Assembly: GCA_020152595.1 (NCBI GenBank)
Contig: JAIGNY010003771.1
Span: forward strand, 365,001 to 429,000
DNA length: 64,000 nucleotides
Direction of reading: 5' to 3'
Origin: Chiridota heheva
Lineage: Eukaryota; Echinodermata; Holothuroidea; Apodida; Chiridotidae
Shown: in pieces, positions 3,551 through 58,786 of the stretch
Numbering within the stretch: position 1 is the stretch's first letter
Layout: the number at the start of each line of letters is the position of its first letter
Translations under genes and position numbers: made by a program
Notes under the pieces: model-generated
Told to the model about the DNA's origin: nothing
The model's input: only the letters and a program-made list of their open reading frames with translations
Database searches by the model: none

Positions 3551-6324
3551 GTACATTAAAAATTCAAAACAATAAAAAAAATTAAAAAAAAACTGCAAAT
3601 TAAACCTAAAAAATGAAATTCTGTAATCGAAAAAATTAATCATATTTATATTAGTATTAATAAAACTTGTCTCTTTAATCAAGATTAACGTTCATATTAT
3701 TTTAAGAAGAACACAAAAACAACGTTTTCTTTTTACAGTAGCATGGGGGAACCTAATTTCGTGCACTTAAGAAAGAAAATGGCCCAAAAAAAAAAAAAAA
3801 AAAAAACAACAACCCATAACTCACCTTTAAAAATTCTTTAAAGGTGTCACTAAACTTTTCATCTTTGTATTGGATAAATAAAACAGAAACTTTTCTATGA
3901 AAAAGTCGAGCGATAACAAAACTCGAGCATGTTCGTTCAAGCTTGAGGGTCTCCAAATTTTGTGCATCTAATGGCGCACTTTAACTTTTTCCATTAGAAA
4001 AACTTGAAGAACCTTTAAAACAGTATGTAAAATGTTGTTTTTAAACAGTTAATGTATATAAAACAATAAAACGTTGAAAAAAGATCAAACATCACTCTTC
4101 CGAGTCTTTACAATAAGGGCATAAGATTAACAAGAAATCGCACTAAAAGACATTTTGATTCAATAGCTTGTTTTTAGTGATATCTGGTGAAAAGAATCAA
4201 TCTAGACCTTTCATTTGTTTCTTTAATCTAATTTGTTGTGCATTAACGCTCGCATATTACTTATTTGAATAAGAATACTATAAGAAAATATAAATTGTTC
4301 ACACCCTATCGTGGGACGGAAATAAACTTTTGTAACGTCATAGCCTTAAGTTAAAGTTTAAGCTCTTAAATATTTATCAGTTTTGAACCAGATGTGACCT
4401 TTGTTTATACTTTTTTAAGCTCAGAGCAGAGAACGTGACGTCATTCGCCTTATACTACGTATAGGCCAAAGGCCGAGAGACAAAACTCCTATACCTACAG
4501 TGTTACGAAATTGTGATACTTTGAGTCATCCACCCATATTGGTTTCAAGTAAAGACAGTAGAGAGTCAAGCATTTACAAATTGAAAACAACAAAGAAATG
4601 TGTCAATTAAGTACTCTACGCAAATTCTTGGAGTAAACATTTTGTTAGTACGGATTTAATTTTATCGTTATTTTTTGTGCACTTTTAGTTCATTAAACTA
4701 ATATTTGTATACGTAATTAATATAACAACTTGTAATTAATATAACAACTAATATAACAAATTTTGACGTCATCCGTGGACCATATGCCTTGCACACAATG
4801 CATGCAGGTACTTTTCGCAATACCGGTACAGTACCGTATACCATTCCAATGGATGTATTACTCATTGTTTGTCCGAACATGACAGATTGAAACATTAAAC
4901 TTAAAGTATTTTTTAAGGAATTACTGCCTAGCCTTATCAATGCCGTTATGTATTACGCCTAGGCTCTAGTTGGTGAAGGTCGACCAATACCGTAGGCCTA
5001 TTAATTATTAATAATAATGTAATGTTAGCAATGGGCCTAGCCACATTATGTCCCCGATGTGATGATTATTGCTGTCGGCCGTTTAGTAAAGACTGAGCTA
5101 GTCAAATGCGTACGTAGTCGGACATCTGCGGTCCTAGACTGCTTGAGATTTGCAATGTAATATTAACTAGGGTGGATCTAGGCCTAGATAATGAAGCTTA
5201 GTTTAGGGTCGGGATTCTCGGGTAGTATGAAAAAGAACTGGGGAATTACCAAGTTAACCTATTAAAATTCAAACCTAGCCGTTAGGCCTACATTCTTGCA
5301 AGACCAAATGCAAGTTGGAACTTGACTAACAAGAACTTAGGCTATGACTTGCTTCAGATTAGCTGCACAGACCTAACTTGATTCGCCTTGTGGTTTGTTG
5401 TGTATACTGTTTGAATTTTAAACAAAACGTTGTAAATAATTCATTAGGAATACTGGAAACCCATATTTGTGAAATTAATATTATTTACGCCAAACATAAG
5501 GTGAAGGCAAATAACTATATAGGCTACACACTAGCTCTATGACACATGCATGCTATTATTGTTACAGTTGGGTTCATTTTGTCAGGAAAAGCTTTCAACC
5601 CTTATTACCAGTTTATCATGTTCAACCTAATGAATTGGGTAGCTTTGACATGCTTATCTTAAACCTATGAAGCTGTCTGGTGTTGAAGGGGAATACATTA
5701 AATAATCTAATTGTGTGTAGGGTAAAAGAAGTATAAAATGTAATTACTACAGGAAATATATATCAATTGACATGAAATGGTGTGTTAACCCCGGTTTTTA
5801 AAACGATCAACACATTAATCTGCCATAAACTTCTAAAAGAATTCCTTTACATTTTCATGTACCTTTATGATAGAGGAATTCGGACTTAATTTTGGAGGTA
5901 ACCAATTTACAAAAGAATGAGTAAAGGGTTTTGACATCACAATTTGATTTAGATTTACTGCAATTGTCACCTGTAAAAATTTAACTTTAACAACTGACAA
6001 TCAACTTTACAAACATTCCTGGCAGTTTTCTTGTGAGACAACTTCTGTGGATGACCATACTTCCATAAGTCCCCACATATAATAACTACAGCTTTAGCTG
6101 AAATCAACAACCTTTGTTAAATGATGCTGATGTAGGTATAGATAAACTACTAGACTACAGTATGTAATTATTTCACAATATGAGTTTTTAAGAAAGAAAC
6201 AAAAAACATCTAAAATATACAGCCTGATACTATAGACCCTTATGGATGTCAAGAGTGGCCTATAGTCAACTGAGCTAAGCCTTGTAAAAGACATGATGAA
6301 GTGTGATATTTCATGATTGTTTAA

Positions 6325-6827
6325 CAGTTCGGGAGCAGCCCGAAAAACTGGGTACTTCAAAATACCCAACAAACTGGGTACTTTTATGTATTACGTCATC
6401 GAATGAGCCTACACATTTGACTAGCCCACACTAAACATATGGGGTTTCTCATTTTCCGCTCCGGATTGTCCAAAATTTCAATGGATATCCTGAAAATTGG
6501 GAGACGGATAGTAAATAAATATTAAAAACTTTCTGCTGCTGCATTTTGAAATTCATCGTCGCCTTTTTTGAGAAAAGGAACAAAACAGACTGCCCTTAAT
6601 CTGTTTGATTGAATTTCTCAAAAAGGCAATCGTGAATTTCAAAAAGCAGCAGCAAAAAGTTTTAAATATCTATTTACTATCAGTATCCAAAATTTCAGAA
6701 TATCCGTTAAAATTGTGGACAATCCGGAAAGGAAAATGAGAAACCCAGATGTTTAGTGTGGGCTAGTCAAATGTGTAGGCTCATGCGATGACGTAAGTAC
6801 CCAGTTTTTCGGGTTGCTCCCGAACTG
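6325..6827. mobile_element. inverted-repeat transposon, ~503 bp, inside the foldback
   Basis: The two halves are near-complete inverted copies. The left begins CAGTTCGGGAGCAGCCCGAA and the right ends TTCGGGTTGCTCCCGAACTG. The pairing continues through ACCCAGTTT, the CATTTGACTAGCCCACACT block, the GAAAATGAGAAACCC block and AGCAGCAG up to a ~40-bp loop near 6575-6615. TTTAA flanks both ends (6320-6324 and 6828-6832) and is a candidate target duplication. It has no coding capacity and looks like a MITE with TIRs of about 230-250 bp. Confidence 0.8.
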
Positions 6828-8814
6828 TTTAATGCAAACAAAAGTCGGATTTTGATGTTGAATATTCAGTCTTGGGGTTAGTGTCTCTTTTTAATTATGC
6901 AGCAAAATTTCTATAAAAAGGGTACACTAAAATTACCATTTCATTTCCTTATAAACCTGTTAACAGTACATTCCACTGCCCAAAAAAGTTATTATACATG
7001 TGCCTGGAGTCAGAAAAGATCTTGGAGGGTATTGTGTACTACAAAATAATATACAGGTATTCAGCTTATTAATATCTGGTACAAAATTAATTTTAGCTAA
7101 AGCTGATAAGTGGAGGACTTATGGAAGTATGGTCACAGAAGATGTCTCACAAGGAAACTGCCAGGAATGTTTGTAAAGTTGATTGTTAGTTGTTAAAGTT
7201 AAATTTCTACAGGTGACTATTGCAGTAAATCTAAATCAAAATTGTGATGTCAAAGCTTTTTACTTATTTTTTTGTAAGTTGGTTATCTCCAAAATTAAGT
7301 CCAAAGTCCTCTATCATAAAATTAATGTAAATTAAACTTTATCGAAATATTTTTTAGAAGTTAATGGTGGACTAATATGTCTTAATCTGTTTTAAACATC
7401 TGAATTTACACACCATTTCATGTAACCTGTAACAGTTGTTTGAGTCAATTGATATATAGTTCTTGTATAAATTACAATTTTTACTTTCTTAACCCTACAC
7501 ACAATTGCATTATTTAATGTTTTTGTCTTCAACACCAGACAGCTTCATAGGTTTGAGATAGCCATGGGAAAACTACCTAACTCATTGGGTTGAACATGAT
7601 GACTAATAATAAGAGTTAATAGCTTTCCTGACAGCTTTTCTTGACAAAATAAACCCTCCTATTAGAATGATAGCATGTGTCATAGAGCTAGTGTGTAGCC
7701 TATATAGTTATTTGCCTCCACCTTGCGTTTAAATAATATTGATTTCACAAATATGGGTTTCCAGTATTAATCATAAATTATTTACAAAGTTTTGTTTAAA
7801 ATTCTGGCAGAATACACAACAAACCACCAGACAATCAAGTTAGGTCTGGGTAGCTAATCAAAAGCAAGTCATAGCTTAAATTCTTGTTAGTTAACTTTTA
7901 ACTGGCATTTGGTCTTGCAAGAATGTGACCTAACGGTTGGGTCTGAATTTTAATAGGTTAAGTTGGTAATTCCCCAGTTCTTTTTCATACTACCCGAGAA
8001 TCCCGACAATAAACTAAGCTTCAATAACTAGGCCTAGATCCACCTTAGTTATTCAAAATCTCAAGGACCACAGATGTCCGACTACGTACGCAGTTGGCTA
8101 GCCTTTATTAAACGGCTGACAGCAATAATCATTACAATACGGGGACGTAATGTGGTTAGGCCCATCGCTAACGTTAAATTATTATCACCAATATTTGGCC
8201 TGCGGTCTTGGCCAACCTTCACCAAATAGGCTAGGGCCTAGGCATAATGCATAACGGCATCTAAGGGCTAGGCAGTAATTCCTTTAAGATGCTTTAAGTT
8301 TAACGTTTCAATCTGTCATGTTCAGGCAATAAGTAATAGGCTAAATTCATCGGAATGGTACATGGTTCCGTACCGTATGCGTACTGTACCGGTATCGCAA
8401 AAAGTACCTCCTGCATGCATTGTGTGCATAGTTTGTCAGTTTATTTTGCACTTGATCCATGGATGACGTCAAAATCAACGTTGTTATATCAATGACATAT
8501 ACAAAATATCATACTATATCATATTAGATATTATTATTATTATAATATTATTATTAGTATAACAAATTTTGTTTAATGAAGTAAAATTGCACAAAAAGAA
8601 ACGTTAAAATGAAATCCGTAATAACAAAATTTTGAAACCAACAATTTGCGTAGAGTACTTAATTTACACATTTCTTTGTTATGTTCCATTCTTCAAATGC
8701 TTGACTCTCTACTGCCCTAATTTGGAACCAACATGGGTGGATGACTTAAAAAGTATCAGAATTTCGTAACACTGTATAGGAGTTTCGGCCTTCGGCCTAT
8801 ATAACTATGTAACG

Positions 8815-16100: not shown

Positions 16101-17810
16101 ATATGGAAATTTAGAGAACAATGAAGAGAAAGCAACAAAAATAATACATAGAAAAGAAACACAACTACAATTAAAAATCGATAAGATCTTATAACACTCA
16201 ATGTTCCACTACAATAACAAAGAATATAAAAATACTATACAAACAGATAATCTATCTCCGAAATATATATTTTTTTCTCTAATATATAAACATTACTATA
16301 TCTATAAAACAGTGATAAATCTTTAAACAGAAATATAAGTACAGACAGCCTTTGATCTGTTTATCATAGAAACAGAAATGTTAAAGTACAAAAAATTATA
16401 TATGAATAAAAAACAAATTATAAAGAGAAAAAAAACACGAATAGGCCTATGTGAAAAGAGAAATATGCGCAGCACTTTGCGCACCACAATGCACTTCACC
16501 AGGATTTGCGCCCAGGAATGATGAGTATGGGCTGACACTAGCGCTCGAATGCGTTATGTTTGTGCAATGTAATGCTATGCTCAGCGTAAAGCCAACCTAA
16601 GACCCAGGGTTCAAAACGTGAAGAAAAACTTTTATCGGAATTTTGTTTTAAAAATTAATTTTCACGTTCCTTTCGTTTTCTACCACTACAAGTTAAGTTT
16701 CTATGAATGTTAAGACAATAAACTTTTCAATGCAAAAGTCAAATTAGGGAAATTATCGACAAAAATATACAAAATTGCACATTTTATGCCAAAATAGGCC
16801 AGTTTTTCTTGAGCTTGTATTTTTCTTGTGAATAATGAAAATGAGGATTTGTTTACATATTTAGATTGTTTGTGAGATTTCCTTTCCATTGATACCAGTC
16901 TATTTTCTTACGCCGCTGCTCTCAGAACAATACATACTGCACAACTAAATAACATATTTATTCGCATGCAGCCAAAATAATAACCACCATGAGAAAGGGT
17001 TTACAAAAGGGAAAACAAAAATCAGGTGAACTTTTCAACGTAGCTTTCAATAAGGGTAATGATTAGTTATGTGCTACCTATCAGAAAACGAAGTATCAGT
17101 TCTCACGTGACCAGAAAAGCACATTCTCTCTCATAGAAATCTAACGTAAAGACTCCTATGAGCTGAAGTGTGAATTTGTGGTAATTCCCTATAAATATTG
17201 ATCTATTATTGAACTCTTGCATATGGACTTCAAATGTTTCCATTTCAAACATTACTTTCTATCAGAAATTATCTTAACATCATCATATCTGTTGAAGAAA
17301 TTATAAGTAGCATACTTACTTTTTCTCAGTAAAGACTTTCTTGGTAAAGAAATCATGCATGAGCTTTTGTTTCTTCATAATGATCGCCCGGGCAGACGAC
17401 AAAACTGTTATGTACTAAGGGGGCACTGTTTTATTTATAGAATTTATAGAGACGCATTGAAGAAATGGAGTGTGACATATTGATGTGTAAATGTAATAAT
17501 TACCCCGAATTATGGTAACAGATACTGCAACCAGCCATGCAGATGGCATGGATAGCTGAATGGCCGACATACTCATAAAAGCATATCAATAAATAAATAT
17601 TGTACAATTTTAAGTATTTATATGGAGGTGGATACTTATTTAAATCCGCACTTTGTATCTAAGGGTTCCGAGCATGCACCACTGAAAGACTAAATTGTTT
17701 CCTATTATGTAGCTACAGAACCATGACAGACATGCACCTTGTATTCTGTAATAAGATCTAAGAAAATACCAACTGTAGTAAGCTTTTTATCTAAGCACCA
17801 TATATTTTAT

Positions 17811-17950
17811 CAGGGAAGTGCCATTTAGAAGGAAAAGTAACTTCCAAAATTTGATCACCTTCCCCAATTACCCACCCACTGATCATCCACACGATGCCTT
17901 TTATAACTCTCACCATTTAACCAAGGACGATTGCCCCAGGAAGGCAATAA
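17811..17950 (+). repeat. left terminal region of the P-like element
   Basis: The first 24 bp pair with the right end at 32324. The whole ~140 bp is nearly identical, in inverse orientation, to the small derivative at 32371-32540, apart from a 20-bp indel between two AACC words. The ATG at 17818 opens a 96-codon frame, but its first 40 or so codons are just this terminal sequence, so I do not call a gene. From 17950 to 19600 I see no gene; an upstream promoter and leader for the transposase are expected here. Confidence 0.8.
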
Positions 17951-19624
17951 AAGTGCTTTTGAATTTTCAACATCATACCGCGTTTTCGTGCTGCCCTCAC
18001 TCAACCAGCGTGTACTTCCGGGTTCGTGGATCACTGTATTGTGAGGGGATTACCCACTTACTACGGCTGCGCAGTACTTTATTTCTTGTGGCATTTCTGG
18101 AAAATTAATGTGCAGAACAAGAGGAAATGTTAAACTTTTTTGTTGCAAAAAACCGCATTTTAATCGGATATGATTTCGGTAAGCTACGCCAATCCTTTTC
18201 TACATAATGTTGACTTCATAATGATGTATTTTTACAATGTTTTGGTGCTCCAAAATTATGATTTTTCCTTACTTTCTCAATACCTCTCGATCATAATTCC
18301 GTGCCATTGTGTTTCTGTGGCCTCTACTGTATACAATTGTGTATGCCGGTTTAACGAATAATACAGAATAAAAACGAAATACGGCATTTCTTTTTACATA
18401 TTTTGCCGCTTTTTATTAGATTTTCACAGTGTTGTCATAGCAACAATGTATGCTTAGATTTTTGCTTCGTTTGGGGTTTTGGTCTATGACGATATCGTTA
18501 TGTTATGAAGCCATAGGCCTACCTAATGTAGCCATCAGCAGTACAAGGGCCCAGACTAAGTTACGACTTTGTTCCTAATTAAATAATTAATTAATATTGC
18601 TGCATTTTTTAAATATTTATTGTATGATCTTGATTATTTTCAGAACAAGTATATTTTTAGAAATCCACACGTAAATTTTTATGAAAGTGTGTCATGTTTG
18701 ATCATGGTCGAAGTTGACTTTAGGCCTAACTTAGTTCCTGGTCTTATTCGTACTTGTACTTAACATTTTTTAGGCCTAGGCCTGGGCAATAGATGGGAGT
18801 AGGACCCAGCTAACTTTCTTCAGTATGAGGAGAGGTCACCAATCATTACCGCCAATAAGATTCGGTTGTGACATTGCCTATGGCCTATTTATGGAAAAAA
18901 TGATTGGACTTTTTTTCATTGGTATCACAATATTTTGCCTTTAATTAATTGCTAAAAAATGGCATTTTCCTACTTCAGCTTCTTTATTGTTGGTAAAAAT
19001 TGTCTTAGCTCTGCTTTGAGTACAAAGTAATTTAGAGTGATATAACATGTATATTTGCTGTTTTAAAATATTACATTTAAATTTATTAAAAGAATTGTTC
19101 AATTCTATGTAACATGGTGAACACACAGTTTGTGTGCCTAAGGAATTATTAAGTTATATTTTTATTTCTTAAAAAAAATCAATTGTTTATTTGTCAAAAA
19201 TATTAAAAATTTCTTTGATTTCTCCTCATTATATCTGATAAATTCACAATGTTGTCCAGATATTCATAAAAAAAAAAAAAACATGAATACCCGCAGTTTG
19301 TGCACCAATGATAAACATATTCAACTTTCAGCAGCTGTACCATTAAATTATAAGAAGGATTGAACACAGAAACCAAAAGAAAGAAAAATTTGAAAATATT
19401 AGTTTCTAAAATCAGTTTTATTTAGAATTTCTTAAACTAACTGATAAATTGAGTTTGATCTTTTGTAGAAGTAGGAGAAATATTGAATTGTACTAGCTTT
19501 GGGCCCGCACGAACTTCATTACCATATTGCTTTTGCATTCAAAGTTTAGAAATGATACTCATATATTCAAATGTATTGACACTATTCTTTCTCTATTTAC
19601 TTTATTACAGATATAGCTACAAAT

Positions 19625-22600
19625 ATGGATTTTCACAAGCAAAATCTAAAATCAATTTGCCGTCTTTGTGGAATAAAGCCAAACCAAATAGCTCTTCTTA
19701 CCCCTAAAGAGCAATTGTCAAAAGACATCGAGAAAAGCTTGGGTATAACATTTTCAGAGGATGATATTTATATTCATCCTTGGGGTATTTGTAGTCCTTG
19801 CCGCCTAAAAATTACTCGGTGGAAGAAGGCCTATGTGAAAAAGAAAAGGGAGCTCCAGCCTCCAAACATCGTATTGTATGAATTCAAAGCACATGATGGG
19901 GAATGCGGATTTTGTCATTCTGAAAAGTGGAATCCCGAAAGCCTACTTTCATTTGCTAAAGATAAGGGATACCAGGCCTGGGTGGCATCTGATGGAAGTC
20001 TTGTTGCCGTGATGTTGCACGAGTTTGGGAGAAGTGTTCGAAAGAGTGTGGTCATCCAAAAAGAGACTGTTATTGTATATATTTTAGGAAGGCTGTTGAA
20101 GCGATCATTTGAGTCTCCCATCGAAGCCCTCAAGGAAGTAGCAAATTTGGAATTATGTGTTGGCAATGAGGATTTTCAGAGTCTTGCTGAAAAACACCAG
20201 AAAGAAGGATTTGTTGGAAGTAAGGGACAAACTCTTGCTGTGGTGGAGGACTTTTTTCAAGATCAAATGTTGGCCGGGATACAGACAGTAAGACATGTCA
20301 ATTGCCACCTTCTTTTGTCACTTGAAGAAACGTCAAACACTAGGTCTGCCAACAGGTGCTCAGTATGTAAAAATTTTCGGTCGAATCTTTTTGTTAAGCA
20401 AGCAGCCCTTAACAAGGAAGCAAATGTATCTTTACAAAGTCACACCAAAAATGTTCTGCTTACAAAGGATCAGCTAGTAAAGAAAGTGACTCATTTAAGT
20501 GAGGACAAGAAAAGACTTCAAGCGAGAGAAGGACAATTAAGATTAAAGGTTGCAAAGCTAATAGAGACAGAAAGTGTGTCTGTTGGAGACAATCAATCAG
20601 AAAAGCTTGATCAGGTTATCAAAAGTCATGAAGCAGAATTGGATGCGTTATTCCCTCCAGATAGCTACAGCAAACTTCTGTGGGAACAGCAAAAAAAAAT
20701 GAGACAACAGAAATCTGCAAAAGGAATGCGTTGGCATCCTGCTGTGATCAAGTGGGCAATAGCGATCCATTCAAAATCTTCATCTGCCTATGATGTGATG
20801 CGTGATACTGGTTTTCTTCTTCTCCCTCACCCACGGACACTTTACAATTATACACACTTCACCAATCCTACTTCAGGCATGAATATTAATTTACTCAACA
20901 AATTCTACAAGGATTGGAATATGGATAAATTATCTAAGCATGAAACCTTCGTGAATCTATTATTTGATGAAATGAAAATTAAGTCGGGTTTAGTGCTTTC
21001 AAGAAGTACTGGCAAGTTGGTTGGGCTCTTGGACGTTGGACCAGTAAACAAAGAAATTGAAAACTTTGAGAGGAAATGTACGAAAGCAGGTACTGACAAT
21101 CCTCCATTGGCTACACATGTTCTCCTCTTTATGGTAAGGGGATTAACATCGAAAATGAAGTTTCCCACAGCGTACTTCCTGACTAACAATGCAACAGGAT
21201 ACCAAATTTACGAAATGGCAATGAAGTGCATGAAAGCCTTGAAACTGCTAGGACTAACCGTACTGAGTCTTTCTTCAGATGGAGCTGGTAGTAACAGGAA
21301 ATTTTATTCAGTGTTAGCAGGATCATCGACATCTTTTTATCCCCATCACAAAGCCAAAAATGTCTATGAAGTGGGTGAAGAAGTATTCTTCATTTGTGAC
21401 CCACCGCACCTGATTAAAACCCTCCAGAACAATTTTGAAAATTCAAACTGGAACAAGAAGAGCAGAAAATTATTGGTGAGTATATTCTATATTATTTGAT
21501 TGATTTAATTGTGTATTAATTTCATGTTTTTAAAAGTTTGAGTCTTCAATCCCAGTAGATATACAATACAGTCCTGTAAGCTACCCCTACCAACTGATAT
21601 GCTACAGCACCAGGGAGTTTGTAGCACTCAATAAGAAAGTTACAAATCTCCACATTTTTGACCTTGCTTATTTTTTCAATTTTTACCGTCTTTCTTTGCA
21701 GTTCCAAGGAAAGCCCATTCAATGGACACATCTACTTCAACTTCGAGAATGGGATGAAGGTCAGCATCGGCTCACTCCAGGGTTGAAGCTTGTGCCTAAA
21801 TTATCATATGAACACCTACATTTGACTCCTGGTTTAAGAATGAAAGTCAGCCTTGCAGCTCAGGTGCAGCTTTTTCGTTACTTTGTTTGCTGTAACCCTA
21901 CCTACCTAACATAATTGTTTTTTTCTCAAATATATATATATTTGTTAATTTGGTCTGAATGGTCATGCTTAAGTGTATAAAAGTTATAAAAGAAAACTTG
22001 AATTTGGCCCTCCAAAAAGTTTATCTACCCACTTGATTTTCTTGCTGAAACCAGGGAAGTGCCATTTAGACTAGCACTTCCCTGCTCAAACAGCAAACCA
22101 ACAATTTTTCAGGACTGCCTGTTTTGGTATAAGCAGGGCAACTGTTAATTCTTTTTCCATATATCATGCTATGGCAATCTCTGTTTTCTATGAAATGTAG
22201 GAATAGTACTTCTGAGTTGCTGTTGTATACCCAAATAGAATAGAGTGTTTATTTTTGTTTTTTTCAGAATTGGGCTTGTTATCTGCAAAAATTATTGCAT
22301 GCACATTGGAGATATTGATATTAGACTCTTTTTCAATTTGCATTTTACTGTCTAATTTCTTAACAGGTTTTGTCTAACACAGTTGCTAATGCTTTGAAGA
22401 TGATGAAGAAGCCAGAGTTTCAATCTACCATTCACTTCATTACCATGGTCAACAAGTTTTTTGACTGCTTGAACGTCTCATCAAAATCTCAGGGGCAGAG
22501 ATCTAGGAACGACAACCTCAAAGCCTACACAAGTGTTGATGACATTCGTATAAAGGTGGGCACCTGAAAACTTGATTAGAGTCGTCTGTTTCATTTTCTG

Positions 22601-25226
22601 CCAAGTTAGGAAACATGAGTTTTTAAAGTGAGCAAGCAAAAGATAAAAAGGATGGAAAGCTGAATTAATATTGTAACAAAATATTTTTGAGATATTGAAC
22701 TTTGGAAAAAAGTCTGTCTCCTGTAATAAAATATGACATGATTTCCAACTCTAGTATAATACAACTTTTGTCAAAAAATGTGTGTACTGAAATGTAAATG
22801 TGCTCCTCTGTTCTTCAAATATTAATGCAAATATTAAGAACTGTTATTGAGTTAGATGTCATTTATTTGAAATAAAGTATAATTTATAATATTCTTGCTT
22901 CTATGATTTTGATAGATATACAGGGCTGGTTATTATTTGATGTTTCTTTTAATGTTGATTTCTTTTTAGTGGTTGAAAGATGAATTTTTGAAGTTCTTGG
23001 ATGAGTGGAGACAGGAAGGAACACAGCATCAAGAACTTAGTGCAAAAGAAAGGAAGAAATTATGCATTAGCAAAGCTACTCTTGTGGGATGCAACATAAC
23101 AGGTGAGGTTATTCATTGTGCTTAATTCTGAAAAGAGAAACATGTGGGCCATTCTTGTTTGTTACGGCACATTTGACTCTTGAATGTTGCGGTGCCGTTA
23201 AACATCAACAAACATTGTTCGTTTCGTCTGTGACCAGCCAAAGAATGACCCATATGACTGAAGGATGTGAGTGAAATTTCTATGATTTCAAACCAATGTA
23301 CATCTCAAAATGTGGATAAGAAATGACAACCTCAGATCCCTGTCTTCAATGTATCCAATAATGACTTTTCATTGAAGGAGTGATTTCCAGTCCCCTGGGG
23401 GCCTTTTAGTGGAATTAATGCCATTTTAGCCAAACATTACAAGTTGTCATGAAAAATTCTTAATTGGATGCTCCCCTTCTTTGGAAATACTGATCTCTAA
23501 ATGGATGGTCACACTGTATAAAATTGCAGAAATTTAGCTCTTTCGTCATGAATAATTTTCATACCTCACATTTAAAAAATCCTGGATGTGCTCTTTTTGT
23601 TACTCTGAACACCCTGTATCAAGAAATGTAAAAATGTTATGCTTTGATCAGAGGTTGCGTTATAATTTTTTGCCTGGCGTATTTGGTTACAAGCCCTTGA
23701 ATTTTGGCATATTTTGTAAATTTGCCGTCGTATGTACAGGGCACTGCGTAATGTACAGGGCACTGCGTAATGTACAGGGCACTGTGTAATATACAGGGCA
23801 CTGCGTAATGTACAGGGCACTGCATAATATACAGGGCACTGCGTAATGTACAGGGCCACTGCGTAATGTACAGGCCACTGCGTAATGTACAGGACACTGC
23901 GTGCTAGCGAAGCATGCAAGTAATTGTTAACACACACACTTGTGTAGGCCTGCCTCGTTAAAGTGAATGAAAATTCGCTTGAAATACCAAAAACATTGAA
24001 AAAATCAGACCATTATTATCATAAGATTATTAAGAAAAAGTTCCGACCCAATCCTTGTATAATCTTGAATCATGAAATTTGACTTAACAATCCCAAAACA
24101 ACTAGAAAATACTTTTGTTTATTGTATCCAAACTTTCACGAGGTTTTAGTAAACTTTGACCAATTGTCAGCGATAATATACTATTCAGATCTTTAACACG
24201 TCTACTTCTTTACAGTATGATAACTTGACTTGCAAATTGTGATCACTTTCACAGATACATGATCCAGGGAAGTGCCATTTAGAATGGCACTTCCCTGCAT
24301 GATTAACACAATACAGGAGGAGTAGAATCCTAGCTAATAAAATCGTTGACAAAACTTTCTTGTACACTGTACGTACATCATGCATAGGGCCCATGATGCA
24401 TAGGGCCTATTTACTAGCCTATATGTGTTTTATGTACAGCACTATGGGCATGTTGAATCATTCGACCATTAGTCTCCTAGTTGTGTCATTTATCTTTTAT
24501 TTATGAGCAATTCAAAATCATTTTTGTGTGAAGTAAACTTTGAATCGCATCAGAGAGGTAAGATGTTCATGATTTTCACTTATGTTAATGAAAATCTCTG
24601 GCGTAAAATTGTACATGCTATATCTAAATCTTACAACCCAGGTACAACCTGTGTTGTGTTGTAAGAAATTTCAGCCATGGCGTAATTTGTCGTTAACACG
24701 ATCTCTGGCTTTGATCATCCTTAATTTAATCTTTATTCATTTTTGATAGAACCGAATCTTAATTGTGTAGAAATTTGCACTTCAATTTCAATGTACAGGG
24801 AGAGAAAATATTAGAGTATATGAAACATTGCATTTGGTTCTTCTTCCCGCAACCTTCTAAACAACCTTTGGATGCTCAATAATAGAAAGCAATATAAATA
24901 ATATGCTATATTAAAATTGTCTTTTTTTTCCAGTAAACTCTTTTGTGGAAATTCTGAAGTACATTCTGCCAATGGACGGGGTTGAGTATTTTCTTTCCGA
25001 CAAACTGAATCAAGATCCTGTGGAGGAATTTTTCTCGAAACAACGCGGTGCTGGTGGCCATCATGAAAACCCATCAGCCGACCAATTTGGCCATCATCTT
25101 TTGAAAAATGTGGTTGCTGGTAGCAGTTCTTTGGCATCAAGGAAAGGCAATGTTCGTCCAGACCAGTCACGGATGAAATATTCTGATGAGCCCCTTCCGA
25201 AGCGAAAAAGATCAAGTAATCCGTGA
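19625..25226 (+). CDS. P-element/THAP9-type transposase, five coding exons
   Basis: Predicted to cut and join transposon ends in the nucleus. Exons: 19625-21475, 21702-21863, 22367-22555, 22970-23102 and 24934-25226, all with GT donors and AG acceptors and consistent phases (0,0,0,1). They give 875 codons with no internal stop. The N-terminus has CRLC (residues 11-14) and CSPC (about 58-61) pairs, then CGFC and CSVC...R, and a leucine-rich coiled coil near 285-315. RWHPAVIKWAI and LPHPRTLYNY precede the RNase-H-like core. Likely catalytic acidic residues are in LLFDEMKIKSGL, LSSDGAGSNRKF and DPVEEFF at the last exon; FFICDPPHLIKT and WLKDEF are further hallmarks of the P superfamily. The N-terminal Cys pattern is not a canonical C2CH THAP finger. 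The start is the ATG at 19625, just after a TTTATTACAG acceptor at 19610 that suggests a leader intron. It appears coding-intact. Confidence 0.85.
22052..22084. repeat. head-to-head pair of element ends (33-bp palindrome), intron 2
   Basis: CAGGGAAGTGCCATTTAGA is followed after a base or two by the inverse, ending GCACTTCCCTG. This is two copies of the terminal sequence of the 14.5-kb element back to back, within a transposase intron. No flanking duplication is evident. Confidence 0.8.
23160..23235 (+). repeat. SINE/LINE-like 3' tail motif
   Basis: GCACATTTGACTCTTG...GCGGTGCCGTTAAAC followed by CATCAACAAACA resembles 57305-57365. It looks like the shared 3' end of a dispersed retroelement family. 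It lies in transposase intron 4. Confidence 0.45.
23738..23903. repeat. 19-bp minisatellite in transposase intron 4
   Basis: About nine units of roughly TACAGGGCACTGCGTAATG. Both strands stay open over it (minus-strand HYAVPCTLRSALYI repeats), but it lies in an intron and has no independent coding support. Confidence 0.9.
24265..24297. repeat. head-to-head pair of element ends, intron 4
   Basis: CAGGGAAGTGCCATTTAGAA overlaps its inverse, TTCTAAATGGCACTTCCCTG-like, giving a 33-bp palindrome. Flanks are CATGATC on the left and CATGATT on the right, close to a short target duplication. It may be a minimal mobile derivative consisting of little more than two ends. Confidence 0.75.
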
Positions 25227-26520
25227 AGAGTTCAACTGTACTTGTCCTTTTAATTATTTGTATTAAAGGTTTTATTTAAGAACAGTTAAAATGCAACATC
25301 GACTTGGCTTCTTTAAGAGCCATTAAAAATGTACCATTGACCAATGTTTACATCACTATTTGCAAACGTTTATGCTAGCTTATTGAGTGGGCGAACTTGA
25401 TATTTTCTCATGTAAACCTTTTTTTTTTAAATTGCTTCTCATTGTTTGAGGTGGTTCATCAAATTTGGATCAAAAGTTTTTTAGTTTTACCATGCTTAAG
25501 TTTTTATAGTAGGACTCGCATTTTAAAGATTTTGAGGTCCAACAAGACAAACATAACAAATTTTCCGAGAACATTTATAGACCTTTAACCTTTGAATTAT
25601 CTGTTGCTGATTTTATTCTCTTGACATCCAATAGCAACTTCTAACTTTTTTGCTAGCATGTATTTGAAAGCAAATACATTCCTTTCTAAATGGTAATGGT
25701 GATGTGAAGAACACCTTTTCACTTCTTATCCCAAGGAATTACACATGAGGAAAGTAGCATAATCAATGAACTGTACTTGTTGTATTTCTAATTTGTATAA
25801 ATGGAATTCTGTGAAGTCTTAAGTGATTCAATTTGAAGAAATATATTCAAATTAATTAATTTTTTTTACTCAAAGGTTTCAATCTTTCTGTTTGAACCAG
25901 GGAAAATATTTGATCTGAAATTTAAGATGCTGTCTTTTTTGAAGGATTAAAATTTTGTTCAAATCATTTTTAGCTGTCTTAATTGAGGACAGTAGTATAT
26001 CCGAATATAATTCTCAAAAGCATGTTTTTGTGAACAAAATGTAGTCCTTAGGTAGAAGGGTGGAGGCAGGGAGGTGAAGGTAATGAGGTGCAGGCAGGAG
26101 GCAATGAGGGTCAGAGTGGAATATCATATTTTGAATTTGTTACTTTTTGTGGTATTGATGGAAAAATACAGTGTATATACTACACACTCAGAATTCAATT
26201 TGTACATTTTGTCAAGTCTTTGTTTTTAAGCTATGGTAGTTTCAAACAGCTGTTGCACTTTAAGTAATATACTGTGTGATTTAGTTGACATTAGTTAACT
26301 TGCTCGTGAACCTACTAAAAATGGTCTTAATTTTTGTGCTTTTTTGGGTGGGATGAAGTGTGAACAAAATTTTGTTTATTGGTAAAAATCATCAAAACAT
26401 TTTTGAATCCTGATCTAATATTATCAAAATCATGATGAAAAAATTATCTCAATACTGTAGTCTTTTTAGTTAGCGACATGGAAGTCCTTCATTGGCTGTA
26501 AACCAAGTCATTGACCCAAA
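25227..26520. other. transposase 3' flank, no further gene
   Basis: AT-rich sequence after the transposase stop. A TATTAAA word at about 25260 could serve as a weak polyadenylation signal. A GGTGGAGGCAGGGAGGTGAAG purine-rich patch lies near 26055-26110. Nothing else recognised. Confidence 0.4.
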
Positions 26521-26534
26521 TGCTATGATATACT

Positions 26535-26572
26535 CAGGAAATGGCACTTCCCTGCTAAATGGTACTTCCCTG
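26535..26572 (-). repeat. two tandem element-end motifs
   Basis: AAATGGCACTTCCCTG is followed directly by CTAAATGGTACTTCCCTG, both on the orientation of the right end. A CAGGAA word precedes them. They are internal copies of the transposon terminus. Confidence 0.7.
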
Positions 26573-26726
26573 CTATATTTTTCTACTGTAAAAGATACTG
26601 AAAATGATTAAGGGTTTTTTACTAGATCCACTTCAAAAGGTTTTTTCTGGAATCATATACTCAGCTGCACTACTGCCAGCATAGGGCTTCTATTGTATTT
26701 TCAACCAAGTGTAATATCGTGTAGAG

Positions 26727-27562
26727 CACGGGTTCTTAATTAATTTTTTCCAAGGGCCATCATTCGACAACAGCCTCAGGCTGCAGGCTAATCGCATGGC
26801 AAAACCAGCATTACATGACAAACAAAACCCCTCAAAACAATCCCCAAATACAAGCAAGCTGAGAGCGCACGCGTGATGAGAAGAATGTATGCCTTCCAAT
26901 GCAGTAGTGTCGCCAGAGATTTTCATTTGGGGGCACAGCAGCTCAGAGTTGAAAAATGGGGGGCACTATAAAAGTGGTGCCTGTTGGTGGCACACAAAGC
27001 GTGTGCGTACCAGCATGGGGTACGAAGGCCCCCTGGTGGGGTCCAAATGCCCCCCGGTGGGGTCCAGAGGCCCCCGGTGGGGTCCAGAGGCCCCTGGTGG
27101 GGTCCAGGGGTGCCCCGGGTGGGGTCCAGGGGTACCCCCGGTGGGGTCAGGGGTACCCCCGGTGGGGTCCAGGGGTACCCCCGGTGGGGTCCAGGTGTTT
27201 CCCCTGGTGGGGTCCAGGGGTTGCCCCAGGTGGGGTCAGGGTCCCCCTGGTGGGATTCAGGGGCCCCCCTGGTGGGTTCCAGGGGTTCCCCCTGGTGGGG
27301 TCCAAAATAAATTGAAGACAGGAACAAAATTTTGTGCCTCCCCTTGGCGACACCACTGGACAAGCTGCGAGTCTGCCCAATTTATATCGGCACTGAAGAT
27401 ATTTTATTTGATAAGCTGCAATGTTTTAGTGTGCTGATCTGCCTAAGAAAAACACAAGAGTAACAAGTATTTTGCAATTTTTGCCAATCTCTTCGCGCGC
27501 CAGATTGGATTGTCTGGCGGGCCAGATTTGGCCCATGGGCTGCCTATTATGAATCGCCGGTG
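26727..27562. mobile_element. probable hAT-type MITE carrying a GC-rich minisatellite
   Basis: The left end CACGGGTTCTTAAT...AAGGGCC resembles the inverse of the right end, GGCCCATGGGCTGCC...GAATCGCCGGTG. This type of terminus, with GGGCC and TGGCCC words, is common in hAT MITEs. No clean 8-bp duplication was found. It lies between the two genes of the large element. Confidence 0.4.
27030..27305. repeat. GC-rich ~25-28-bp minisatellite (GGTGGGGTCCAGGGG)
   Basis: About ten units built from GGTGGGGTCCAGGGG plus a variable CCCCC/CCCTG part. All frames over it are open on both strands and glycine/proline-rich, which is a compositional effect. Confidence 0.9.
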
Positions 27563-27959
27563 TGGAGGACAATATGGGATAACATTATATGAGAGGAAGC
27601 ATTACGCTTAATGATAACTTTCTAAATGACAGAGGTCAAGGTCATTAGAAAATTGACAATTTTTACCCAGTCTTGGTGAAAGATCCTTAACTTCTCCTGA
27701 CCATCAGTAGCTCAAATCGCACAACAAATCAATTAAAATAAAAGTTGGAACAATCAGTGCCGATATGTATTTCAATATTTATATAATCATGGCATTTATA
27801 TGAAATTAAACCCAAAATAAAACTAAATCCCAAACGGTATAAACAGTTAATAACCCCAGTGCAAGGGGACAAGTCACCCGGACTTAAACCCACTGGTGGA
27901 AACCTTATAGGGTCATGATTTCCCCCAAATGTACTGCAAATACAATTTAAACAAGATAC

Positions 27960-28358
27960 TGACCAAATTTGAAGCAGTTATACCAGTTCCACTACAACAA
28001 ATAATGGAATTTTTAAAACTCTTGGAAGATGAGAATTAGCCAATGGTATGCAAATCTAAATGACACTTCCCTGAATTACTTTGCAAATAAAAGTTATTGA
28101 TCACATTTAAAGCATTTATCCCAGTTCCACTACAAAAAATCATTGACAAATTTGTAATACTCCTGGAAGATGGGAAAGGTCATTGCTGCATTAAGTGTTC
28201 TTAGACTTGAGTCTAAAATGACACTTCCATGAAAAGACAATTGTAAGACAATTTTATTGCAGTTGTACCAGTTCCACTACAAAAAATCATTGTTGAATCT
28301 GTAACACTCTGTAAGATGGGAATGGCCATTTTGGGGGTCTAAAATTTGCACTCCCTGT
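27960..28358 (-). repeat. three tandem ~115-155-bp units each ending in an element terminus
   Basis: Units run about 27960-28073, 28078-28231 and 28245-28357. Each contains CCAGTTCCACTACAA near its start, an A/T stretch, GGAAGATG or GTAAGATGGG, and ends in TCTAAATGACACTTCCCTG or a close variant. The last 19-20 bp of each unit match the transposon TIR in right-end orientation. This is a tandem subterminal-type array located in the middle of the element, just beyond the 3' end of the PHD gene. Confidence 0.75.
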
Positions 28359-28643
28359 GAGAAGAAAACGGTCATCTTTGAGTAAACAAATTTGTAAAAG
28401 AAAAGCGCTTGTCAATTCTCATATTACTTCTAATTTATTTGAGCAAAGAAAGAAAAATAATTATTGCATCTAAGATAAATAAGTTTAATGAATTTATCTC
28501 AAAAAGGAAATGAGAACTGATGAGATAAATACTTAAGGTGAACAGGAATGACAAATCTTTGACAAGAAAAAACACTTCAAAAATAAAATATACTACTAGT
28601 AAATTGACTTTTGAAATATCAATTCTAAAAGCGGCAAACAAGC

Positions 28644-31600
28644 TTATTTCTCTTGCAAGTTTTTACGGAGTCCTTTCTCCTTTGTTTTGGTAATAGATGC
28701 ATCAGCACTTTTCCTTATGTTCAAATATGCTTTAATGAAAGAGTTGCACCGCATTTTGATGAAGGCTTTAAACACCTCATGGCGTAACTTAGAGCTGCAC
28801 ACTTTAGGTAATGAGGAGACAATCTCCGACCACTTTGCAAGAATAGCTTGATTTCCCTCCATTTTGTTCAACAGCATAACCTGTAGGTTGATGTCCTGTA
28901 ATTGTTCAATGTTTCTGGTGCTAACTGTGGACCTCACAACATTTTCCACCATAGAGAAAAAACAAAACACTTTGTCATTGATTTTAAACAAGCCACCTCT
29001 GTTTTGAATGTGAAGCCATTCTTCTGTGTATATAAGGAAGTTACTACACTGTTCTGAATCCAGAGTTACTGCCCATGAAGAGAGAACTTCCACATACTCT
29101 TTGGCGATTTTGTTTTCTTTCATCCTCTTAAAACGCTTAATTAATTTGAAAGGAACATATCCACAGGCATACCGAAGTGCTTGCTCCTCACTTTCATCCA
29201 TTTTTGTAGATACTGACTCACTTTCAGTCATTGTTGGCAGGTCCGTTTCCACAAGGGTAGCCAATAGGGAGTTGAACACATGCTCAAATACATGCTGAAG
29301 TAAGAAGACCTCTTCCTCGGCACCTCTAACTATTGTCTTTAAATCAAGCAGGTTTTTCCATTTCTTTAATGTTTTTTCATTTTTTCGACATTCATGGAAT
29401 TGTTGCCACATTTTGAATTTCTTATCTTCAGTCCATGATGTGCCACGAAGTACTTTGATAACTTTCCAAAGCTCATTAGTAAGTCCCTGAGCAAACTTAA
29501 CAGCAACTGGTGACTGCAATACGTCTTTAACTGACGAAGCCAGGGCTATAACACACTTTGTTAAGGGTGTATCCAGCTGAAAGAGTAAACACACTGTCTA
29601 TAGCTTCTTTAAGAAAATCCTCAGCCAGTACATCTGCATGAACTTTCTTGAATGTTTTCTTTGGGTACATCATCTTCTCTAGAAATATACAGAAAGAAAA
29701 GAAATAATAAAACACTAGAATTTATGAAAAATCAATCCAGCTATTTACATTTTATCTTCAGAAATGTTAAATTTGGTGTGAAAAAACATTTCACATAAAC
29801 ATAGTGATTGTTATTTATTCATGTTTCAAATCTCCCTTTTTTAGGAATTTAAGTTTCATGGGGAGTTTTCAAGAAAACAAAAATCTTTAAAAAAAATTCT
29901 CAAAAGAACAAAATTTGTTCAATCAAGAAAGCACTGTAAGTTCCTATGATTGCAATTTTCATTGTGGCCTATAACATTTGATTTTTTTTTTATATAGCAC
30001 TGTATCCAAATGCCAGGGCAAAGCATTAAAAATAAATGAGTTTAAAGTCTTTACTTTAAGGTTTGTCACTCTTCTTAATAGTGTTTACACGGGTATCCGA
30101 AATATCCTGGTCCCCAACCGATTGAGTTGCTACCCGGTTCCGAAAATACAACGCGGGTATGGATTTTCATAATATTATACCAATTGCAAACTGTTTTTGT
30201 TTCAGAATCGTATGTTAATAGAATAAATCTTAACTTACAAGAATTATAAAAGTGTTTGTTTTCTTTCTATTCCAATGCAATGCAATAAAACAATCTTAAA
30301 ATATTGTAAGAGATCGCAGAAATGATATTGAACGAGCGATGTGGCTAGTAAGTAGTAAGGTAGGTACGCTAGTAGTACTACATGTACTAGTAGCCCAAAA
30401 CTTACTCTCTAAACTTCGCTGTAAGAAAAGAGATATACAGACCAGCACGCAACAAGCAGTGTGTGTAGAATGCTGCAGAAAAAATATATTGCGGTTGTAC
30501 ATTACCAAACTATTTTGAAAGCGTGTCTGCTATTTGCTGAAAAAAATGTAACACCTATTATGAACCAATCACAGGTTGTGTTCAAATGAAACTGTTACGT
30601 GCTACTGAGCGTGCACATAACAAAACCGTGGAATCGCGTATTATTCCAGAAAACACCTGTTCCGTGAAATTTTGAGGAATTGAGTATATTATTATTGTTC
30701 GGTATTTTATGAAGACAGGTCAAAAGAGACTAGAAACATTTGTATTTGATTTCTTTATTCACAAAAACAAAGATACGATTGAAAACCAAGAAATGTCACA
30801 AGATTTTACAAAGTACATTGTCAGATTTATAAAAATTATTGAAAAGGCCTTGTCGACATGTCGGATACCCGACCGATAATGCAGGTCGGGTACCCGGTCC
30901 GATTTTTGAACCCAGTGCAAACACTACTTCTTGATTTGTAAAGGTAGATTATGTTGCAGAGAAAAACCAAAATGGCCATAAAATAACAAAAAAGTAAAAT
31001 CATTAACTTAAGAAGAAAACTTTAATTGCCTTGTCTGTGACATTGATCATTCAGCAAATATGCTTTTGTACCTTTTTCCTCTGGCTGATCCATTTCCAGT
31101 GCTGCGGCTGTACCCTCTTCAAACACAACAGAAGGTTGTTCAGAAGTAGCTTCATCTGCAAAATATGAGAGAAAATAATTCAATTTAAAGAACAGAATTT
31201 AAATGTATGTGCAAATCCTGTTTATTACAATACAAGTCCATATATTGATCATTACAAAACATAACTGGTCAATCACAAAATTCACTGCAGGTTTTCAAAA
31301 TCTAGGACTTGGCTGTCACTGAATGATTGTAATTTCTGGGGACAGGGGGCACTTCAACCCCACTACTTTCAGGCAGAAATATTTAAAAAATGACTGAATT
31401 CATTTGACATTATCCCTCACTAAAATTTTGGCCCCTAAGCCGTCCCCACCTTGTGAAGGGAAATACACAGCCTGGCAGTTTGAAATGTCTAACTTCCCTA
31501 GTCTAACACTTCTATGTTCATAAGGCCCCAAGTGAAAAATGTTATCCATGGTGTTATCACAGTACTGTAGCCTGTGTGTAGGCCTTAGTACCACCAGATT

Positions 31601-32070
31601 TGGCAAGATAATGCTTAAATCAGGGAATGGCACTTCCCTCTTTAAATTAAATATTGATTTATGAAATAACAAGTATCATGACATGGAGAACAATTTTCTA
31701 AAAAATGCAAACAGTGAACACGCTTACCTTCTGGAATCGTACATTCTGTACATATCCAATTTACAGTCCACCAGGAAAATATGTCTTCTGGCGTAACACC
31801 AGGCTCGTTACTAGGCCTAGGCCCAGTTGGCATAGGCCTAGCACAATTTGCGTGAAACCACTTTCTTCCACAAGATTCGCTATTGCATCGTACCAAGTTT
31901 TCCGTTGATGGAATGCCACAAATACATAAAACAGAAGCGGGTTCTAATTCCTGAACACTAGATTCGTCGTTCAGCTTCACAAAATCGTCCCAGTCACTTA
32001 ATTCGCTGGAATCTGAGAGATATAATCTGAATGTTTCTTCCGTCATTTTACTGTAGTCTACGCACGCCAT
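28644..32070 (-). CDS. PHD-finger gene of the P-like element (multi-exon)
   Basis: Function unknown; possibly a chromatin-reading accessory protein. Coding starts at the ATG at 32070 (MACVDYSK); AGCCAATC (CCAAT-type, near 32125) and TTATATTTAGG (TATA-like, near 32110) lie just upstream. Exon 1 ends at 31728 before GTAAGC and encodes an acidic leader and a C4HC3 PHD-like finger: CIC, CNSESC, HANC, WICTEC. Exon 2 (31155-31072) keeps phase 1. The next exon begins at 29678 after TTTCTAG and runs to the stop at 28644. This final region encodes a ~300-residue helical domain with EEQALRYACGYVPFKL and WLHIQNRGGLFKINDKV. I recall such sequences from uncharacterised invertebrate repeat-associated proteins. 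Continuity between exon 3 and the long frame needs either a ~55-nt intron (GTACTG at about 29625 to CTTTCAG at 29577) or a 1-nt frameshift. Confidence 0.65.
30079..30926. mobile_element. hAT-type non-autonomous element in an intron of the PHD gene
   Basis: The left end TAGTGTTTACACGGGTATCCG and the right end, inverse TAGTGTTTGCACTGGG...GGGTACCCG, form degenerate TIRs rich in CGGGTA words. CTTCTTAA (30071-30078) and CTTCTTGA (30927-30934) are an 8-bp target duplication with one mismatch. Length is 848 bp with no transposase frame. It lies wholly in the intron between PHD exon 2 and exon 3. Confidence 0.85.
31621..31640. repeat. internal element-end palindrome
   Basis: CAGGGAATGGCACTTCCCT is a compact overlap of a terminal motif with its inverse, in an intron of the PHD gene. 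Confidence 0.6.
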
Positions 32071-32300
32071 TATGAAGAGTAAGCCATGTGCAATTAACAT
32101 ACCTAAATATAATCTGGGCTCTGATTGGCTTATTTTGGGGGCTCGTTACTTTGCATGAGGAGACCACACACAACGGTTTTACGGACTGAACCGAACTTTT
32201 AGTGCCGGAAGCTGTTTATACAATTCGGCGGTATACTCACTAAAACCATGGAAGTAGAAGAGACTTCCATGCTAAAACAAAGGGAAGGTCAAAGAACCCG

Positions 32301-32324
32301 TTCCTTCTAAATGGCACTTCCCTG
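32301..32324 (-). repeat. right terminal inverted repeat of the P-like element
   Basis: Reads TTCCTTCTAAATGGCACTTC then CCTG on +, the exact inverse of the first 24 bp at 17811. It is followed by ATTTTATC. Between it and the PHD gene start are a purine-rich GGAAGTAGAAGAGACTTCC hairpin near 32250 and the gene's promoter-like boxes. Confidence 0.85.
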
Positions 32325-32370
32325 ATTTTATCAATCGCATCAACTCGAGGGCCAATTCTGTGGATATACC

Positions 32371-32540
32371 TTCCCTGCTTTTATTGCCTCCCTGGGGCAA
32401 TCGTCCTTGGTTCTAATGCCAACTCCCTGGTTAAATGGTGAGAGTTATAAAAGGCATCGTGTGGATGATCAGTGGGTGGGTAATTGGGGAAGGTGATCAA
32501 ATTTTGGAAGTTACTTTTCCTTCTAAATGGCACTTCCCTG
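32371..32540 (-). mobile_element. 170-bp derivative of the P-like element with 8-bp target duplication
   Basis: Perfect GATATACC octamers flank it (32363-32370 and 32541-32548). Read on -, it starts CAGGGAAGTGCC and follows the left ~140 bp of the large element almost base for base, with 20 extra bases between two AACC words. Its other end reads CAATAAAAGCAGGGAA, so the second terminus is in direct, not inverted, orientation. The fresh duplication shows mobility of this family and fixes the duplication size at 8 bp. Confidence 0.8.
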
Positions 32541-43232: not shown

Positions 43233-43437
43233 TCTCGCCTAGCCTAACGTACAGACTAGACGAAGCCTAGACCTTACTTACGCACAGTAGTTAGTCCACA
43301 GCTGTTACTGTTATTGTTCTCGTTTTACCAATACCTAGGCTACCAGTGCATTGTTGGTCGATGACCCTGGTACGGTACACCGGAAGCTTCGTATTTGATC
43401 AACCAATGAAGTTTTTCCTGACTAGGCCTACCCCATT

Positions 43438-44104
43438 ATGGGTAGTATCGACATCTTTAATAATCAGTCGCCAATAGAACATGGTGCTGTTTACTTTCCA
43501 ATGAAAGGGGAAGTGATCGATGACAGTGAAAAACAGCCTAATGTTAGGCCAACTGCAGTAACTTTTGTAGGCCTAACTGTTCCTTCAGAACAAAACATTG
43601 GTGTTGCAGGTTTGGGTGATGTTGTATCAGAATTGTCCTCGAATTTCAGTGCACAATTTTCAACACTAAGAATGGAAAGAAAAATAAAATGCTTGAGTTG
43701 TGGTGGTTTCAATGTACAGGTTCAGAACCATAGGCACAGCAGGGCTGGAAGGAAAATTGTGGAGTTATCTGCTGGTAATCCTGTCACAAATTTCAGAAGT
43801 GATGACATATCTGGTGACTATGGTAGTGAAAATGAAGTTAGTCTGGGCAGGAATTCAAAGCAACATACATACCTAAAAAATGCATTTAGGAGGATTAGAA
43901 GAAATACCTCCCCTGGGGCTCTTGAAAGCTTCATCCTTCCAGATGATGATGATGATGAACCATTATTAGATATAACAACCAGAGTTGATGATCATTGTCA
44001 TTCCTCCGTGCCCAACACAGCTCACATCAGTAATAGAACAGCTCAAAGGCAGCTATTCCTTGTTTGTGTCATCTGCCTTACATTCATGGTACTCGAAGTT
44101 ATTG
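43438..44104 (+). CDS. zinc transporter (SLC30A/ZnT-like) N-terminal exon, copy A
   Basis: The frame opens at MGSIDIFNN and runs to TTG|GTAAGC, a strong donor, leaving phase 1. It carries a long cytosolic N-terminus with a CLSC pair (about residues 82-85) and an acidic ILPDDDDDE stretch, then HCHS and RTAQRQLFLVCVICLTFMVL, EVIG. The last part looks like the start of TM1 of vertebrate ZnT2/3/4/8-type transporters, which continues GGY.ANSLAIMTDA in the next exon. Those proteins move zinc from cytosol into vesicles as proton antiporters. The remaining exons were not found in the window. A candidate, not a proven gene. Confidence 0.55.
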
Positions 44105-45884: not shown

Positions 45885-46335
45885 TTGAAAGGTGTATCAG
45901 AAGAGATGGGAGACGAAACAGCAGAAGTGAATCAGAGGTTTGATCTATCAACTATACCTTATGGTGCCATGAAAAATGAGACAGAACCAGTCTTGAAGTG
46001 TTTTTTTTGCCAGCAGAATGTTGAGGGTGGTTTAGACTGGAGATCACAATCATGCACTTGTAAACAAATTCACCACGAAGTTAACCTAGGATTTTCTGTA
46101 AATAGTGGAGATATTCAACGAAATGGTAGCTTGGATGGGAAGAAAATTTCATCATCAAGAAGTGGGTTTCTGTTTCCATCAGATGATGACACAGCTGCAG
46201 GAGGGGAAGCCCTTTTGTCACATTGTCATTCACCGAGCATGGACTATGGTGCTAAAGCGTCCAACTGGAGGGCTCAGAGAGCTCTTCTGATAGTTTGCTG
46301 CATTACTCTTTTTTTCATGTGTATCGAAATAACAG
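45885..46335 (+). CDS. zinc transporter (SLC30A/ZnT-like) N-terminal exon, copy B
   Basis: Homologous layout to the exon 2 kb upstream, in the same order: CFFC pair, FLFPSDDD acidic stretch, HCHS, then NWRAQRALLIVCCITLFFM, CIEITG, and ACAG|GTAAGT donor with the same phase 1. The start is either ATG 45885 or, better, ATG 45906 (MGDETAEV), where copy A also begins MG. Sequence identity outside the landmarks is low, so the duplication is old. It could be an alternative first exon of one gene or the first exon of a tandem paralogue. Confidence 0.5.
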
Positions 46336-55870: not shown

Positions 55871-55879
55871 CCTTATGAA

Positions 55880-56325: not shown

Positions 56326-56394
56326 CTAAATGCCCAGCAGTTTTGCAATCATGGAGCTGATACATGGCTTGGCTTTTCAAGGACTCAGATACCT

Positions 56395-57151: not shown

Positions 57152-57154
57152 GTA

Positions 57155-57385: not shown

Positions 57386-57411
57386 CTTTCCGGGTGGTAC
57401 AATAGTTCCTT

Positions 57412-58657: not shown

Positions 58658-58786
58658 GTGCTACAAGTGGTTCACATGTTACGGGTTGTGAACCCTTATG
58701 AATGATCACATCCTCAGTTGGATAAAACACACGAAATGGAATCGTTTGTTGGGAGCAGTCGACTACTGCATGAGCGATGACATTGT

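Follow-up and report, generated by a model that had tools for sequence, protein, structure and literature searches.

A 14.5-kb P-superfamily transposon of the sea cucumber Chiridota heheva with a transposase probably divided over two convergent genes

A 14.5-kb segment in the genome of the sea cucumber Chiridota heheva carries two genes between inverted ends, which raises the question of whether both genes belong to one transposon and what the second gene does there. The segment occupies positions 17811–32324 of the window, the whole stretch of 64,000 nucleotides that was analyzed (contig JAIGNY010003771.1, positions 365,001 to 429,000, forward strand). Gene A lies on the + strand and gene B on the - strand, and their stop codons are ~3.4 kb apart, so they form a convergent pair. 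An earlier sequence-only reading of this DNA had proposed a convergent two-gene element of the P superfamily, and this was still the best reading of the locus: the ends and the target-site duplication mark one insertion, and gene B appears to carry the C-terminal domain (CTD) of a P transposase. On the observed ends, duplication, gene structures, and domain similarities, we consider it likely that the segment is a single DNA transposon of the P superfamily, with its transposase split between the two genes.

Boundaries of the Element

The left terminal inverted repeat, CAGGGAAGTGCCATTTAGAAGGAA (17811–17834, + strand), had a perfect inverse over 24/24 bp at the right end (32301–32324, - strand). 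The sequence-only reading had placed the 24-bp ends correctly to the base. The first 22 bp of the end, with up to three mismatches allowed, occurred six times in the window and never in 100 shuffles. Comparison of the flanks showed that the ends are bordered by two exact copies of ATTTTAT, at 17804–17810 and 32325–32331. A duplication of 7–8 bp had been suggested; its length is 7 bp and not 8 bp, because the eighth base differs on either side.

All CAGGGAA…TTCCCTG pairs of the window that were at most 40 kb apart were compared for their flanks (n = 72). Four pairs had flanks matching at six or seven of seven bases, against 0.10 expected with equal base frequencies. Only the pair 17811/32324 matched at 7/7; the pairs 17811/32377, 22052/22084, and 24265/24297 matched at 6/7. 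The simplest reading is that the whole 14,514 bp represents one insertion. The exact 22-bp end pattern was found at no locus in the genome-contig collection searched.

Gene A and the Catalytic Core

Gene A comprises five exons, which were spliced in frame into a product of 875 amino acids (aa). The start-codon exon (19625–21475), assigned by homology, encodes a zinc domain resembling the RAG1 N-terminal domain, a helix-turn-helix (HTH) region, and the part of the RNase H domain with D448 and D552. The GTP-binding insertion domain is encoded by the second exon (21702–21863), supported by alignment and a Pfam match below the cut-off. The next two exons (22367–22555 and 22970–23102) were placed by in-frame joins and alignment to relatives. 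The last exon (24934–25226), identified by Pfam and alignment, encodes the C-terminal part of the RNase H domain (E809), the tail SDEPLPKRKRSSNP, and the stop codon. The product covers P0001 of Holothuria leucospilota from residue 1 to 865, and it could be aligned end to end with P0001 and with P0002 of Apostichopus japonicus at 53% identity each.

Two Pfam domains were above the cut-off in the gene A exons, RNaseH_N (E 2.4e-24) and RNaseH_C (E 1e-07), and three were below it, HTH, the GTP-binding insertion (GBD, E 0.0067), and a zf-AD finger. In the relative P0001, all of these passed except HTH, and GBD reached E 3.4e-14. In the PDB, gene A matched the Drosophila P transposase (6p5a_A, E 4.9e-17), and its residues D448, D552, and E809 aligned with D230, D303, and E531 of the Drosophila enzyme (DmTNP). 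The RNase H core with its GTP-binding insertion, the D-D-E residues, and the inverted repeats together point to the P superfamily. NCBIfam gave no family for P0001 or for the gene B relative P0022. In tblastn searches, no gene A relative was confirmed in the viral-contig and genome-contig collections, nor any gene B relative in the viral-contig collection.

The sequence-only reading had described an intact P/THAP9-like transposase. The 875-aa frame was intact and the P-type core was borne out; the THAP part of the description had to be abandoned. No THAP domain matched at E ≤ 1 in the window exon or in 14 gene A relatives. Nine N-terminal sequences, the window and eight of the 20 gene A relatives chosen by us, were combined into a profile, and its top three PDB sequences were all RAG1 (21wb_A, E 9.3e-11). 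Below them came 7po9 (E 0.0067), which we take to be a Drosophila ZAD domain. Three relatives (P0004, P0015, and P0018) matched the Pfam RAG1 model at E 1e-04 to 1.4e-09; with these three removed from the profile, RAG1 was still the top PDB match (E 1.8e-07). Single sequences matched RAG1 more weakly: the window protein at E 0.019 over 19 residues, P0001 at E 0.1, and six of the 14 relatives at E ≤ 1. The N-terminus of gene A therefore appears RAG1-like and not THAP-like, so that the catalytic protein would carry a RAG1 N-terminal domain.

Gene A appears to lack the CTD. In its product, 71 residues follow the NQD motif that adjoins the catalytic E, and 67–93 residues follow it in P0001, P0002, P0004, and P0005. 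In P0020, a distant P-type relative that itself had no THAP match, 290 residues follow. P0010 has CQD in place of NQD and, by eye, a similarly short tail; the remaining gene A relatives end upstream of the motif. Several tails of the family share, by eye, a motif like SDEPLPKRKR, which might act as a nuclear signal or as a peptide for docking. The CTD is thus predicted to reside not in the polypeptide with the catalytic core but in gene B.

Gene B

Gene B begins within the element, its start codon 254 bp away from the right end. Exon 1 (31728–32070, - strand) encodes a PHD-like finger, nearest to ING proteins, as judged from alignment, a PDB search, and a Pfam PHD match below the cut-off (E 0.004). 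Exon 2 (31072–31155, -) encodes an acidic linker and was placed by splice sites and phase only, with no homology support. Exon 3 (28644–29678, -) was characterized by profile and structure comparison, and it encodes a helical region followed by the P-transposase CTD, with a frameshift near 29586. The sequence-only reading had noted a multi-exon PHD gene on this strand, starting about 250 bp from the end, which was accurate and incomplete, as the gene also has the P-transposase CTD. Among the PDB sequences that matched the PHD exon at E ≤ 5, 19 of 23 were ING or yeast ING-type proteins. A RAG2-type PHD finger was considered and rejected, since none of the 23 was RAG2.

About 310 residues of the last exon were similar to P0021 (50%), P0022 (47%), and 49 further proteins, and a conserved basic stretch (KSLRKEL) ends the proteins of this family. 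The CTD was supported by a profile–profile comparison with P0020 and by a structure comparison with the P transposase. When P0020 was searched with the gene B profile (hmmsearch), the result could not be distinguished from shuffles, and the same profile had no matches among PDB sequences. The stretch preceding the CTD gave no convincing structural match. No Kelch match was found in the gene B pieces of the window or in P0021, P0022, and P0023. The family PF22824 was precomputed for some gene B relatives; it did not appear among the Pfam families listed, and a literature search on it gave no paper. A PHD motif upstream of the CTD region was present in three of the 51 gene B relatives, from two sea cucumbers and the sea urchin Lytechinus variegatus. 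Most of the remaining matches are unannotated and probably single open reading frames (ORFs), so that a separate PHD exon would lie outside them.

Linkage and Phylogeny of the Two Genes

The nearest relatives of genes A and B share contigs in both annotated sea cucumbers with a gene A match. P0001 (A) and P0021 (B) of H. leucospilota lie on contigs of equal size (44,962,100 bp), as do P0002 (A) and P0022 and P0025 (B) of A. japonicus (37,207,079 bp). The shared contigs are of chromosome size, and therefore sharing does not establish that A and B are adjacent.

The A tree was built from all 20 relatives and the window, and the B tree from 17 of the 51 relatives, chosen by us, and the window. 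P0001 and P0002 were sisters in the A tree (100/99) and were joined by the window (100/100). P0021 and P0022 were sisters in the B tree (92/90), within a group (91/90) that also held the window, P0023, and P0028 in an order that was not settled. The two trees are compatible. Stand-alone CTD-type proteins (P0021–P0071) occurred on many contigs, and genes for a CTD on its own may be common.

Proposed Mechanism and Alternatives

Gene A would be the catalytic subunit, with a RAG1-like zinc domain, an HTH region, and an RNase H domain interrupted by the GTP-binding insertion. Gene B would be a subunit that joins the transposase CTD to the PHD-like finger. We infer that the two assemble as one transpososome on the 24-bp ends. 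This complex may make cuts with a long stagger, as Drosophila P does, and its insertions would be staggered by 7 bp. Its PHD finger might tether the complex to modified histone H3 and so bias the choice of targets toward H3 marks. The assembly of A with B, the ligand of the PHD finger, and past activity as a pair are parts of this proposal that we extrapolate from the domains. In the structure of Drosophila P (PMC7776569), the position of the division between A and B is occupied by a disordered linker and a domain acting across subunits. A CTD on a loose tether that acts across subunits could plausibly become a polypeptide of its own.

Several observations weighed against the two-subunit reading. 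Compared with its relatives, gene B carries a frameshift near 29586, whereas gene A is intact; this copy may therefore be defective, or the assembly may be wrong there. The PHD motif was present in three of the seven NCBI gene B models and missing from the other four, including the nearest relative, P0021. Three of the four stand-alone CTD relatives in H. leucospilota (P0021, P0023, P0027, and P0030), namely P0023, P0027, and P0030, lie on 52.8- and 103.9-Mb contigs with no gene A relative listed. Foldseek alone gave no CTD match at E ≤ 0.001, and 6p5a was absent from the best 50 of 115 and the best 50 of 120 matches. The search with the single gene B sequence, which covered proteins up to ~840 aa, returned only P0021, and the gene B profile search was unable to return long fused proteins.

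Three alternatives were weighed. The first is that gene B encodes a regulator, such as a repressor occupying the CTD site of the complex, and not a needed subunit. In Drosophila, truncated forms of the P protein act as repressors of transposition, and a PHD finger could bring chromatin effects. However, the four gene A relatives that reach the relevant point have no CTD of their own; if gene A never has one, no CTD in cis is left for gene B to compete with, and we regard a regulator as unlikely. The second is that gene B is a host gene, anciently derived from the CTD of a P transposase and trapped in the element by chance. The frameshift in B beside an intact A and the stand-alone CTD relatives would fit this origin. 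However, gene A and likewise its four relatives are without exactly the domain that gene B has, the nearest relatives of both genes share contigs, and several diverged B copies in one genome resemble a mobile family more than one conserved host gene. Chance capture is also less likely because the domain encoded by gene B is, in Drosophila, part of the P transposase itself (in cis), and we hold it to be quite unlikely.

The third, a composite of a P-type element with gene A only beside another member of the family with gene B, whose outer ends mimic one unit, is very unlikely: end-like sequences do occur inside, at 22052, 24265, 26536, 28050, and 31621, but 7/7 flanks among the 72 pairs are confined to the outermost ends, two of the three 6/7 pairs are self-closing 33-bp palindromes and the third (17811/32377) ends in a neighboring short element, the CTD of gene B belongs to the type of enzyme that gene A encodes, and the nearest A and B relatives are on shared contigs in two species.

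Comparison with Known Systems

The element of C. heheva shares with Drosophila P and THAP9 the RNase H core with GTP-binding insertion, the D-D-E residues, a helical CTD, inverted repeats, and footprint-like end remnants. It does not qualify as a canonical P element. Its N-terminus resembles RAG1 where theirs is THAP, its CTD is on a separate convergent gene and fused to a PHD-like finger, and its duplication is 7 bp instead of 8 bp. Its length is 14.5 kb, whereas the Drosophila P element is about 3 kb. Cleavage with a 17-nt stagger and GTP dependence are features of the canonical P/THAP9 type; the length of each end retained in two 33-bp remnants inside the element (~11–19 nt, by eye) would be compatible with such a stagger.

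The layout parallels that of RAG and ProtoRAG (RAGL) transposons, with two convergent genes, a catalytic protein that bears the RAG1 N-terminal domain, and a partner with a PHD finger, as in RAGL outside amphioxus. By its domains it is nevertheless not a RAG transposon: the core is P-type and not Transib, the partner has a P CTD and no Kelch propeller was found in it, the PHD finger is ING-like and not RAG2-like, and the duplication is 7 bp instead of 5 bp.

A mobile element with RAG1 N-terminal-like sequence, N-RAG-TP of Aplysia, was reportedly described by Panchin and Moroz in 2008. Passages of PMC8355894 describe this element and derive the RAG1 N-terminal domain from it. By contrast, the relevant passages of PMC4411706, where this part of RAG1 is named the 'Chapa' domain, report it in no transposable elements known in 2015 beyond the Transib/Chapaev group. 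Chapaev and TransibSU thus share a zinc domain of this type, the sameness being deduced through RAG1; their core is of Transib/Chapaev type, whereas the domain here sits on a P-type core, a combination that does not occur in those passages (PMC4411706).

A search of the literature by title and opening of the abstract, partly among the best-ranked results only and with Repbase not covered, found no such element described. We have not seen a description of this build, with its split transposase, RAG1-type N-terminus, PHD partner, and 7-bp duplication. No second case of a P-type transposase split between two genes is known to us. The division falls at the disordered linker and trans-acting domain of the Drosophila structure (PMC7776569), which makes the split biochemically testable. 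The element also bears on the origin of the RAG1 N-terminal domain and on why transposases gain partners with PHD fingers. A broader scenario is that two-subunit P-type transposases, one subunit catalytic with a RAG1-type N-terminus and the other joining CTD and PHD finger, are an old animal lineage that independently reached the RAG design of convergent genes for a cutting subunit and a partner that reads histones, and that a member or close relative donated the N-terminal domain to the RAG1 ancestor; we consider this rather unlikely.

Traces of Movement and the Rest of the Window

The window contains nine exact CAGGGAAGTG 10-mers, all of them within 17811–32540. Two footprint-like palindromes of both ends, 33 bp each, lie at 22052–22084 (flanks CTGAAAC/CTCAAAC, 6/7) and 24265–24297 (CATGATC/CATGATT, 6/7); by eye, they retain ~11–19 nt of each end. 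A shorter one lies at 31621–31640 (CTTAAAT/TTTAAAT, 6/7 by eye), a doubled end remnant without clear flank duplication at 26536–26572, and a single end remnant at 28050–28073 (- strand). The palindromes resemble the footprints that family members would leave on excision after having jumped into the element. Searches for the end motif, as an exact 10-mer, a 12-mer with one mismatch, or a 14-mer with two, found it nowhere in the window outside the element and the adjoining short element. The clustering of remnants could reflect either a preference for self-insertion or an inherited internal feature. Tandem arrays of 19-bp and 22-bp units were also present inside the element (23732–23902 and 27029–27304); the last intron of gene A holds one of them, and the other lies in the intergenic space.

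A short element related to the left end lies at 32370–32540, 45 bp beyond the right end, between two 7-bp flanks that, by eye, both read GATATAC. An arm of 117 bp is 99% identical to the left end of the large element, which suggests recent activity. The other terminus of the short element reads CTTCCCTG, where the end motif is oriented the wrong way round. Elsewhere in the window, a large diverged inverted repeat spans ~4556–8714, and most of 60 of the 258 inverted exact 18-mer pairs centered near 6.6 kb. Interrupted ORFs at 55366–59215 (- strand) resemble, by eye, integrase and reverse transcriptase of Ty3/gypsy type, and ORFs at 43426–46391 (+ strand) resemble, by eye, the first parts of zinc transporters of the ZnT (SLC30) type.
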